Below are positions 4,528-32,161 of a DNA stretch of 64,000 nt, piece after piece (the stretch's first letter is position 1; each line of letters starts with the position of its first letter). The notes beneath the pieces were generated by a model. That model searched no databases. It saw nothing but the letters and a program-made list of their open reading frames with translations, and was not told the DNA's origin. The DNA is taken from positions 1 through 64,000 of the forward strand of contig NZ_JAQYWB010000002.1 in the NCBI RefSeq assembly GCF_030145185.1, in the 5' to 3' direction. The translations under genes and the position numbers were made by a program. Origin of the DNA: Desulfoluna sp. Its GTDB lineage: Bacteria; Desulfobacterota; Desulfobacteria; Desulfobacterales; Desulfolunaceae.

Positions 4528-4609
4528 GAAGGCCTCCTCGCGTCGATTTTTTTTGAAAAGAGTGCTATAAACTCTTCTACCACACACAGGACAAAAAGCA
4601 AAAAAGCCT

Positions 4610-4693
4610 GCCTCCGGCGGCCAGGGGATGATCCCCTGGACCCCAGGTTGCGAATGCCCTCTCCCTTCGTTCCTCAGGGTGAGGACATTCGCG
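4610..4693. repeat. Dispersed intergenic repeat, family A (left-end type)
   Basis: Starts GCCTCCGGCGGCCAGGGGAT, continues into a CCAGGGG/CCCCTGG hairpin, then AGGTTGCGAATGC and, after about 35 variable bases, a matching CATTCGC. Same framework as the other family A copies, with the first hairpin replaced by the CCAGGGG version also found at 31985. Confidence 0.8.
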
Positions 4694-7896: not shown

Positions 7897-8700
7897 TCAT
7901 CCCCTGGCCTCCAGAAAAGCCATGGTCTCATCCACGCCTTTTCCCTCGTGCACGACGCCATGAAGGGCTTTCACAAGCAGCGCGGGGTTTTCATCCTGAA
8001 AAACGTTTCGCCCGATGGAGAGTCCGGCGCCCCCGGCCTGGTCGGCATCATAGACCATCTGCACGATGTCCCGATGGCTGGACATCTTGGGACCGCCGGC
8101 AATGACCACGGGAATACAGCACCCGTCCACCACCTGGGCAAAGGTTTCTGGAGAGCCGGTGTAGGGGACCTTCACCACGTCGGCGCCCAGCTCTTCGGCG
8201 AGTCGTGCCGAATGCTTCACCACCTCCACATCGTATTCATCTCGAATCCCGGCCCCACGGGCGTAGACCATGGCAAGGAGCGGCATGCCCCAGCTGGCGG
8301 CCTCGGTGCTGATCCGGCCAAAGGATTCAAGCATCTCCATCTCTTTTTCATCCCCCAAATTCACATGGATGGAGATGGCGTCGGCCCCCAGACGAATGGC
8401 GTCTGCCACGGAACCCACCAGGGTTTTCGCGTTAGGGAAGGGCGAGAGGACGGTACTGGCGGAGAGATGGATGATAAGACCGATATCGTTGCCGTGGCCC
8501 CGGTGGGTGCGCCTCGGCAACCCTTTATGCATAATCACGGCGTTGGCGCCGCCTTCGGCAACCTTGTCCACCGTCCCTTTCAGGTCAACCACTCCGTAAA
8601 TAGGCCCCACGGTGACGCCATGGTCCATGGGGACGATAATGGTTTTCCCGGTGTTACGATTGAAGACACGTTCCAGTCTGATGGCTTTCCCAAGAAGCAT
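7897..8700 (-). CDS. 2-amino-3,7-dideoxy-D-threo-hept-6-ulosonate synthase (archaeal-type AroA')
   Basis: 267 residues of a class I aldolase of the FbaB/LsrF/ADH synthase family. Signature segments are [13 protein letters not shown] at the N-terminus, the [14 protein letters not shown] and LLAMVYARG strands, the Schiff-base lysine in [12 protein letters not shown] (near residue 181) and the phosphate-binding IAGGPKMSS and [13 protein letters not shown] loops. In archaea and several Desulfobacterota this family performs the first step of the alternative 3-dehydroquinate route to aromatic amino acids. A fructose-bisphosphate aldolase role is the alternative. The upstream Phe/Trp-rich leader and terminator strongly favour aromatic biosynthesis. 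The start is preceded by AAGGAGGAGCA. The partner dehydroquinate synthase II is not in the window. Confidence 0.85.
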
Positions 8701-8773
8701 TGCTCCTCCTTCATCGGCTCAGCAGGGTTGATCTTCGACGGCTGGTCGGAATGGGGTTTAAAAAATAAAAAAA

Positions 8774-8801
8774 GGCCGCCGGCGTTTCAATGCCTGCGGC
8801 C
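8774..8801 (-). terminator. Attenuator terminator upstream of the aromatic aldolase
   Basis: On the reverse strand GGCCGCAGGC, an eight-base loop and GCCGGCGGCC form a ten-pair stem with one mismatch. It is followed at once by TTTTTTTATTTTT (8773-8761). It lies between the leader peptide and the aldolase start, the place of a transcription attenuator. Confidence 0.85.
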
Positions 8802-8832
8802 CTTTGCTTATTCGTTGGTTGGTTCTCTACGA

Positions 8833-8910
8833 TCAGCAAACACCCCAGGCGCAAGTAAAAAACCAGAAAAACCAGAAAAATGCGTTTGTGTGGGTGATAG
8901 ATCGTTTCAT
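8833..8910 (-). CDS. Aromatic amino acid attenuator leader peptide (25 aa)
   Basis: An ATG at 8910 opens a 25-codon frame ending in TGA at 8833. It contains six Phe and three Trp codons, including the uninterrupted run FFWFFWFF at residues 11-18 and a further Trp at 22. This composition is what Phe/Trp attenuation leaders look like (compare pheL and trpL in enterobacteria), and a strong terminator follows 30 bases later. When charged tRNA-Phe or tRNA-Trp is scarce, ribosomes would stall on the run and let transcription continue into the aldolase gene. A possible competing pairing is GCCTG of codons 21-22 with CAGGC of the terminator's 5' arm; it is short, so the antiterminator is not firmly identified. 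No good ribosome binding site is visible; the likely transcription start is close to the ATG. Confidence 0.8.
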   Translation of the reverse strand: MKRSITHTNAFFWFFWFFTCAWGVC

Positions 8911-8918
8911 GGGCCAAA

Positions 8919-8948
8919 GTGTTACCAGAACACCTCACCTTTTGTCAA
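8919..8948 (-). promoter_or_regulatory. Promoter of the leader-aldolase unit
   Basis: Reverse-strand TTGACA (8948-8943), 17-18 base spacer and GTAACA/TAACAC (8925-8919). It would start transcription almost at the leader ATG, implying a nearly leaderless message unless another promoter is used. Confidence 0.6.
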
Positions 8949-9030
8949 GAAGGCACCCTCACAATCAACCTGTGCGAACAGAAATAGGGGCTGTTTATGT
9001 AAAAAATAACTATTTAGACCATGAACAACA

Positions 9031-9216
9031 GCCTCCGGCGGCAAGGTGTGCCACCTTGAAAGCAGGTTGCGAATGCTTTTTGCCACTCGTTCCTCGGGTC
9101 AAATCACATTCGCATTTGTATCGAGAGCTACCAGGTATTATTTTTTAAGACCTGTTTGTTAAACCCATCCCATAAAAATTGGCAAAAGTTTGGCCCCCGG
9201 CAGGGCCGCCGGAGGC
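9031..9216. repeat. Dispersed repeats: family A left-end copy followed by family B copy
   Basis: 9031-9125 runs GCCTCCGGCGGCAAGGTGTG...GCGAATGC...CACATTCGC. 9150-9216 runs AAGACCTGTTTGTTAAAC to TTTGGCCCCCGGCAGGGCCG and CCGGAGGC. The same A-B succession occurs at 4610-4803. Confidence 0.8.
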
Positions 9217-9253: not shown

Positions 9254-10072
9254 TTACTTGTTGTTTCCGAAACGCCCCACCGAACCCGCCAACTTCGCGA
9301 TACGGCCAAAAAAGCCTCGTCGAAAAGCCACCATCAGATAAAGGTTGCCGGGAGCCCCGCCCCCTTTGCCCTCTTTTCCCATACCGGTCAGACGAATCTT
9401 CTGACCCTCCCGAACACCGGGAGGAATTTTCACGACCAGCTTCTTCCCGCGGGCTTTGTGAAAATAGGCAAAGGGTCCGCCCGAAGCGGCCAGCTCTTTT
9501 TCAATGGCAATGGTGTCCAGCACATCCCCCCCTTTTTTCGGCCCTCTGGAGAGGAGCGAACCTAGCAGGGAGGTTGCCTGACCCCCGAGGAAGCCACCCC
9601 CGGATTTTTTTCCTTCCACGGAAGGCCGGGATGCACCGCCGGAAGACTTAAAAAAGGCCCCCTTCATGGAAAAACCAGGCCGTGAGACGTTAAAAGTTTT
9701 CCAGCCATTGCCATAAAACTCTTTGAAGATGGCATCGCCCCCACGGAAGCCGAAATCCTTGGCCAGCTCCTCAAAAATAGCGTGGATATCCGACCCATTA
9801 AAAATATCCTGATCGGTGTAGTCCTGTCGAAATCGATGGGTCGCGTCGGCGCCGAAGGAACTCTGCATCGCATCGTAGTTGCGCCTTTTCTCCGGATCGG
9901 AGAGGACGGCATAGGCTTCGTTCACAGCCTTCATCTTATCCGCTGCATCGGGGTGGGTCCGGTTGCGGTCGGGGTGATGAATCAATGCGAGCTTTCGGTA
10001 GGCATCGCGGATGGTGGTCGCATCGGCGTCTTTGGAGACGTCCAGAGTGGCGTAGTAATCGGTCTGTTCCAT
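9254..10072 (-). CDS. DnaJ-class J-domain co-chaperone
   Basis: 272 residues. Residues about 4-68 are a J domain with the invariant HPD (IHHPDRNRTHPDAADKMKAVNEAYAVLSD), which stimulates DnaK ATPase. The middle (about 95-190) is Gly/Phe- and Lys-rich with no zinc-finger CxxCxGxG repeats, so it is not a type I DnaJ. The last 80 residues (KKLVVKIPPGVREGQKIRLTGMGKEGKGGGAPGNLYLMV) match the C-terminal substrate-binding beta domain of DnaJ/CbpA proteins. The ATG at 10072 was chosen because the longer frame overlaps the end of the upstream membrane-protein gene and adds residues not typical of J domains. It probably shares a transcript with that gene. Confidence 0.85.
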   Translation of the reverse strand: MEQTDYYATLDVSKDADATTIRDAYRKLALIHHPDRNRTHPDAADKMKAVNEAYAVLSDPEKRRNYDAMQSSFGADATHRFRQDYTDQDIFNGSDIHAIFEELAKDFGFRGGDAIFKEFYGNGWKTFNVSRPGFSMKGAFFKSSGGASRPSVEGKKSGGGFLGGQATSLLGSLLSRGPKKGGDVLDTIAIEKELAASGGPFAYFHKARGKKLVVKIPPGVREGQKIRLTGMGKEGKGGGAPGNLYLMVAFRRGFFGRIAKLAGSVGRFGNNK

Positions 10073-31934: not shown

Positions 31935-31984
31935 GGTCTCTCCTTTTTTTGAATCACTACACAGCAGGGAAAAACAAAAAAAAT

Positions 31985-32161
31985 GCCTCCGGCGGCCAGG
32001 GGATGATCCCCTGGACCCCAGGTTGCATCCGGTTCGCTGGCGCTCACCGTCTGCGAGATAATATCATGCCATCCTTGTCACGGCGTAGCCGAAGGCGAAG
32101 ACGGATCGAAAGCAGGTTTGAAATGCGCATCGTGTGTCGTCATCGTCCGCATTCGCGTAAA
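31985..32161. repeat. Dispersed intergenic repeat, family A variant
   Basis: GCCTCCGGCGGCCAGGGGAT with the CCAGGGG/CCCCTGG hairpin, as at 4610, then GTTGCATCCGG, a CACGGCGTAGCCGAAGGCGA piece shared with 4740 and 59340, and GTCCGCATTCGCGT at the end. Confidence 0.75.

Follow-up and report, generated by a model that had tools for sequence, protein, structure and literature searches.

A probable ribosome-mediated attenuator with Phe and Trp codons upstream of an orphan ADH synthase gene in Desulfoluna

In E. coli, DAHP synthase is present as three isozymes, AroG (Phe), AroF (Tyr), and AroH (Trp), and the attenuator of the enteric his operon is built of six segments, in which the helices A:B, C:D, and E:F stand against B:C and D:E. 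Among attenuators of aromatic pathway genes, those of pheA and pheST in gammaproteobacteria (RF01859) combine a Phe-rich leader peptide with a terminator and an antiterminator, and a study by Vitreschak from 2004 reportedly deals with proteobacterial attenuators. In Corynebacterium glutamicum, the aroF gene encoding DAHP synthase has a Phe-Tyr-Phe leader (PMC4046766), and the leader peptide of ilvBNC reportedly forms although a ribosome binding site is lacking (Morbach 2000, as cited in PMC4046766). In Desulfovibrio hydrothermalis, a homologous cluster comprising genes for an aldolase and 3-dehydroquinate synthase, pheA, aroA, tyrA, and trp genes moves together under pressure (log2 -3.6 for the aldolase and -2.9 to -3.6 for the listed neighbours), and the text of that paper does not mention attenuation (PMC4162548). 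In a search that covers the older literature incompletely and does not prove priority, we found no earlier description of an attenuator acting on ADH synthase or of attenuation in Desulfovibrio. In this study, we analysed a 64,000-nt stretch of Desulfoluna DNA (the window) and found that an orphan ADH synthase isozyme is very probably coupled to the supply of Phe-tRNA and Trp-tRNA by a ribosome-mediated transcription attenuator. The mechanism is classical, and its target, its breadth, and the isozyme split described below have apparently not been described before.

Like the pheA and pheST attenuators, the Desulfoluna locus has a Phe-rich leader peptide, a terminator and an antiterminator, and a gene of the aromatic pathway, but the downstream gene is a different one, the start is probably leaderless, Trp codons are mixed with the Phe codons, and no sequence homology between the leaders has been shown. 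RF01859 (Phe_leader) gave a weak full-length match to the locus (21.3 bits, positions 1-125 of 125, E 3.2), well below its gathering threshold of 55 bits, and none of the Rfam leader families reached the gathering level in six related loci. In C. glutamicum, the first committed step of the pathway is likewise served by a gene with an aromatic leader peptide, aroF (PMC4046766), but aroF encodes a classical DAHP synthase non-homologous to ADH synthase, belongs to another phylum, and has a single short FYF motif. As far as it is described through that source, the ilvBNC leader also lacks a ribosome binding site, but serves a branched-chain pathway with corresponding codons in Actinobacteria. The Desulfoluna locus combines a short upstream ORF in which codons for the regulated amino acids are clustered, an intrinsic terminator between leader and gene, an exclusive antiterminator which shares the 5' arm of the terminator and is supported by covariation, a computed geometry in which a stalled ribosome frees and a ribosome at the stop codon masks the antiterminator strand, and a downstream gene which, judged by family and pathway context, makes the amino acids of the control codons (Table 1).

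Table 1. Coordinates of the attenuator and of the related leaders in the same genome (window positions unless a contig is named).
Feature	Position	Strand	Remark
-35 element TTGACA	8943-8948	minus	Invariant in six genomes of the genus
Putative -10 TAACAC, preceded by TGG (extended -10)	8919-8924	minus	Ends 8 nt from leader AUG
Leader peptide ORF MKRSITHTNAFFWFFWFFTCAWGVC*	8910-8833	minus	25 codons plus TGA; kept in orthologues
Control codons 11-18, FFWFFWFF	8857-8880	minus	Stalls at codons 11-16 predicted to favour antiterminator
Segment 2, antiterminator strand GCCUGGGGUGUUUGCU	8835-8850	minus	Codons 21-25 and first stop base; includes W22
Segment 3, AGCAAAGGGCCGCAGGC	8792-8808	minus	Pairs with segment 2 (antiterminator) or segment 4 (terminator)
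Segment 4, GCCGGCGGCC plus U tract	8767-8783	minus	3' arm of intrinsic terminator
Intrinsic terminator AGGGCCGCAGGC-ATTGAAAC-GCCGGCGGCCTTTTTTT	about 8803-8767	minus	
Shine-Dalgarno region of ADH synthase gene, GAAGGAGGAGCA	8701-8712	minus	Assigned from sequence
ADH synthase (2-amino-3,7-dideoxy-D-threo-hept-6-ulosonate synthase, AroA'), clade I orphan isozyme	7897-8700	minus	TIGR01949
Main aro operon leader MIRFFSAFYYFYYWYHIGVPRHALNNTHF	L035, contig C151, upstream of 13653	minus	Phe/Tyr/Trp
trpE Trp leader MVHFQSTFHLIATCWWWRPSLQGLPTTPLPAEL	L055, contig C39, upstream of trpE		

The downstream gene had been taken in a first-pass annotation for an ADH synthase/AroA'-type gene with a biosynthetic rather than glycolytic role. 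The first statement is borne out by the curated equivalog model TIGR01949 (score 367.1 bits, cut-off 299.45), and the gene does not reach the cut-off of the class I FBP aldolase model NF040816 (213 vs 430 bits). The nearest solved structure is MJ0400 (2qjg, E 2e-90), and residues K177, D26, and Y146, which are invariant across 16 homologues, align at an offset of 7 with K184, D33, and Y153 of MJ0400, which we take to be the Schiff-base Lys and its partner Asp and Tyr. The nearest named relative is Desulfoluna limicola of the same genus, with 94% identity. In the phylogenetic tree, the gene of the window groups with those of Desulfovibrionales in clade I (support 100/100), the main-operon ADH synthase copy of Desulfobacterales forms clade II (99/93), and divergent aldolase paralogues form clade III.

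The 25-codon leader with FFWFFWFF described earlier is present on the minus strand and contains six Phe and three Trp codons. This coding pattern has a single occurrence in the 5.8 Mb genome, and none of 2000 dinucleotide-shuffled versions of the 250 nt preceding the gene attained eight aromatic codons in nine. A chance origin of the aromatic leader is excluded, because 82% of 125 related upstream regions, as compared to 0.7% of shuffles, contain at least six aromatic codons in nine. The leader ORF is presumably translated, and no Shine-Dalgarno sequence is found before it in Desulfoluna. Its message is probably leaderless because the promoter -10 lies only ~8 nt from the AUG, although we infer the start site itself from the sequence. 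The almost leaderless character that had been remarked on proved to be conserved among relatives: in 46 of 47 clade I loci, a -35 resembling TTGACA stands at a similar distance from the leader start, and across these 47 loci the median distance between the end of the best -10 and the leader AUG is 8 nt. Several clade II leaders differ in that their 5' region is longer and carries an AAGG-type, purine-rich site.

The strong terminator reported after the leader was also recovered, with a folding energy of -20.5 to -21 kcal/mol for the stem-loop and -25.6 kcal/mol with extra flank; a simple consensus terminator scan returned 0 sites, probably owing to an internal mismatch in the stem. In contrast to the earlier impression that no competing antiterminator could be firmly drawn, segment 2, directly after the control codons, pairs with segment 3, the 5' arm of the terminator. 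In Desulfoluna this duplex (GCCUG/GGU/UUUGCU with AGCAAA/GGGCC/CAGGC) has -23.8 kcal/mol, as compared to -20.5 for the terminator stem, contains two G-G mismatches, and shows a modest gain over shuffled sequence (duplex test p 0.025-0.075); the antiterminators of relatives are stronger. The codons that immediately follow the aromatic cluster in clade I (consensus GCC UGY GGY CUG) complement the 5' arm of the terminator (GGGCCGCAGGC), and across 49 loci the antiterminator duplex has a median of -21.5 kcal/mol, beats shuffles at p<0.05 in 46, and lies mostly 5 nt past the aromatic cluster. Folding and covariation in related Desulfobacterota had been proposed as checks, and both exclusive helices were found and covary in an alignment of 43 sequences of relatives (A3). 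For the antiterminator, 93% of cells are paired and 10 carry changes on both sides, and 0 of 500 shuffles reached its covariation score; for the terminator, 99.4% of cells are paired and 12 changed on both sides. Within GCAGGC, the middle A has no pairing partner in the terminator, yet it covaries with the base opposite it in the antiterminator (UA, UG, CG, AU), and this position is therefore explained by the antiterminator only. At the level of sequence, attenuation of a biosynthetic ADH synthase, as first proposed, is thus well supported by conservation, covariation of both helices, and the position of the control codons.

The absence of leader and terminator upstream of close orthologues had been named as evidence that would speak against attenuation, and both are kept in all five other genomes of the genus and in most of the more distant clade I orthologues of Desulfobacterales and Desulfovibrionales. 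In a scan of 80 loci from named genomes, aromatic leaders precede ADH synthase throughout these two orders, and also occur in a few MAGs labelled otherwise. No aromatic leader was found before the seven clade III members examined, which serve as a negative control, and a recognisable one is absent from the orphan clade I ADH synthases L063, L075, L087, L096, L098, and L110. For some of these orphans, the operonic copy in the same genome has a leader. A DnaJ-like gene that is read in the same direction ends at 9254, and the minus strand carries a weak promoter-like match at 8790-8762, so one might suppose that the terminator ends an upstream transcript, that the aromatic-rich ORF is coincidental, and that the gene has its own downstream promoter. 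We consider this very unlikely: the leader is conserved together with the antiterminator and the terminator in two orders whereas the flanking sequence diverges, the helices covary, and such ORFs arise in only 0.7% of shuffles.

In the attenuator that we favour, transcription would begin at, or a few bases from, the leader AUG. With a shortage of charged tRNA-Phe or tRNA-Trp, the ribosome would stall in codons 11-16 (FFWFFW), leaving segment 2 free to pair with segment 3 before segment 4 is made, so that no terminator would form and the ADH synthase gene would be transcribed. If both charged tRNAs are plentiful, the ribosome at the stop codon would cover segment 2, segments 3 and 4 would form the terminator, and transcription would end about 65 bases before the gene. 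Whether transcription terminates or reads through, and how this responds to Phe and Trp, is predicted from codons and folding. For the stall geometry, the transcript was cut before segment 4 and the probability of segment 3 being held upstream was computed with ribosome footprints of 12-18 nt. Segment 3 is sequestered at 0.75 for stalls at codons 11-16, to an intermediate degree for stalls at codons 17 and 18, and at 0-0.08 for stalls at codons 20-24, W22 included; the values for codons 11-16 and 20-24 are robust to footprint, and the codon borders of the effect move by about one codon with the footprint chosen. Readthrough is predicted for stalls in FFWFFW, and termination with the ribosome at the stop codon or at W22. 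In this model, Trp can be sensed at W13 and W16 and Phe at F11-F15, whereas W22, inside the antiterminator strand, cannot be a control codon because folding predicts termination with the ribosome there. The earlier proposal of feedback control by both Phe and Trp is kept as consistent with the codons and folding from which it is deduced, but the Trp response would run through W13 and W16 and not through W22. At equilibrium, folding mostly favours the terminator as soon as segment 4 is available, and the switch would therefore depend on co-transcriptional kinetics, as is usual for such switches.

At W22 (8845-8847), a Cys codon of the antiterminator strand has become Trp (TGT to TGG) in the Desulfoluna and Desulfobotulus leaders, a change which is common to two lineages and breaks one antiterminator pair. 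An origin of W22 by frameshift in the antiterminator was rejected, as the alignment shows the simple TGT to TGG change.

In principle, any regulator of this general type, such as an amino-acid-binding riboswitch, a T-box, or a protein-controlled terminator/antiterminator, for which translation would be irrelevant, could make use of the alternative helices. We give this reading a very small probability: no T-box or riboswitch model of Rfam matched here with E up to 5, none matched in six related loci, no conserved RNA domain was seen beyond the leader codons and helices, and the antiterminator is nearly fixed relative to the codon cluster, as a stalled ribosome would require. That the 25-codon ORF, which is hydrophobic and conserved within the genus, codes for a small membrane peptide with a function of its own, and is no sensor, is the least probable reading of all, since across relatives only its aromatic character persists, with F, Y, and W interchanging and the N-terminus varying freely, and since its conserved C-terminal codons are the antiterminator strand, where changes follow base pairing.

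The attenuated gene is not alone in its genome. No classical DAHP synthase was found there in a search for the PF00793 family, outside which plant-type PF01474 lies, and the sole PF00793 gene is KDO8P synthase. The sole PF01761 gene (L037 513-1958(+), contig C71) encodes an AroB-superfamily protein of 481 aa which falls below the AroB cut-offs (113 vs 305 bits; best PRK06203, 305 vs 333) and is probably not the main-pathway dehydroquinate synthase. The genome has DHQ synthase II in an operon, aroA'-aroB'-pheA-aroE-aroA-aroL-aroC-tyrA, where it adjoins the operon's own ADH synthase behind a separate Phe/Tyr/Trp leader; the gene of the window is therefore a second, orphan first-step isozyme. Thus, of the earlier claim that the attenuator controls the replacement first step, the attenuated ADH synthase stands, but it is not the sole first-step enzyme, given the operonic copy on C151.

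The two kinds of leader were compared in 13 lineages in which the orphan and the operonic ADH synthase of a single genome both have one; these lineages are not fully independent, and the orphans lie at several separate places of the tree, in both orders. The Phe share is higher in the orphan leader in all 13 (mean 0.78 vs 0.37 operonic; Wilcoxon p 0.00012), and the Tyr share is lower in all 13 (0.16 vs 0.48). Among clade I leaders, the Tyr fraction with and without a known paralogue did not differ significantly (p 0.23), and the group without still held orphans. These codon shares suggest a repeated assignment of an isozyme to Phe via its leader codons, to which Desulfoluna would add Trp. It seems fairly probable that in Desulfobacterota the first-step isozymes of the ADH route are assigned to different end products by retuning of attenuator codons, on leaderless leader-peptide messages and more than once, with Phe-dominated orphans (Phe and Trp in Desulfoluna) beside an operonic copy with mixed Phe/Tyr/Trp codons. 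Such an arrangement would match, at the level of transcription and with a non-homologous enzyme, that of AroG, AroF, and AroH, which are likewise parallel first-step isozymes each tied to one aromatic end product; in E. coli, however, the assignment is by allostery and repressors on another enzyme family, whereas in Desulfobacterota it would sit in the leader codons. The leader codons would then predict directly which end product each isozyme serves, and a simple evolutionary route to amino-acid-specific isozymes is suggested, in which the codons of a leader peptide change and not the enzyme. The attenuator is a probable means by which bacteria regulate the archaeal-type entry into aromatic biosynthesis; it speaks for a biosynthetic role of these 'aldolase' genes and is a conserved, easily tested RNA element which is not in Rfam.

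The leader of the main operon is more elaborate. Clade II leaders contain two hairpins, and the helices 2:3, 3:4, 4:5, and 5:6 all covary, with 90-97% of cells paired and a covariation score above all 500 shuffles in each; for 4:5, support by two of the five measures is weaker (16 and 17 of 500), and the likeness of the two hairpins could alone create some 4:5 complementarity. This architecture resembles the enteric his attenuator, but in most clade II species the middle hairpin itself is followed by a U tract, and the Desulfoluna orphan leader has a simpler single-terminator form. In Desulfoluna's own family, the first hairpin of the main-operon leader lacks the U tract, yet is retained, which fits a relay like that of the his attenuator, where 2:3 would free segment 4 and 4:5 would block the terminator 5:6. 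When the Desulfoluna clade II copy was folded, 3:4 formed at 1.00 with the ribosome at the stop codon, and stalls in the cluster gave about 0.9 for 2:3 and about 0.6 for 4:5. In the same genome, two tandem terminators come after the trpE leader, and the arms next to each other look complementary.

The surroundings of the attenuator contain dispersed repeats. An intergenic repeat, GCATTCGCAAACCCGCTTTCGAGGTGGCACACCTCGCCGCCGGAGGC, occurs on either strand in about 10 copies in the window (9027-9080; 4977, 14281, 15475, 19182, 19539, 24822, 30335, 44701, and 59566), and the copy at 9027-9080 lies just upstream of the attenuator promoter and overlaps a weak Rfam P8 match. A second dispersed repeat, GCCTCCGGCGGCCAGGGGATGATCCCCTGGACCCCAGGTTGC, is found at 4584-4651 and 31959-32026.
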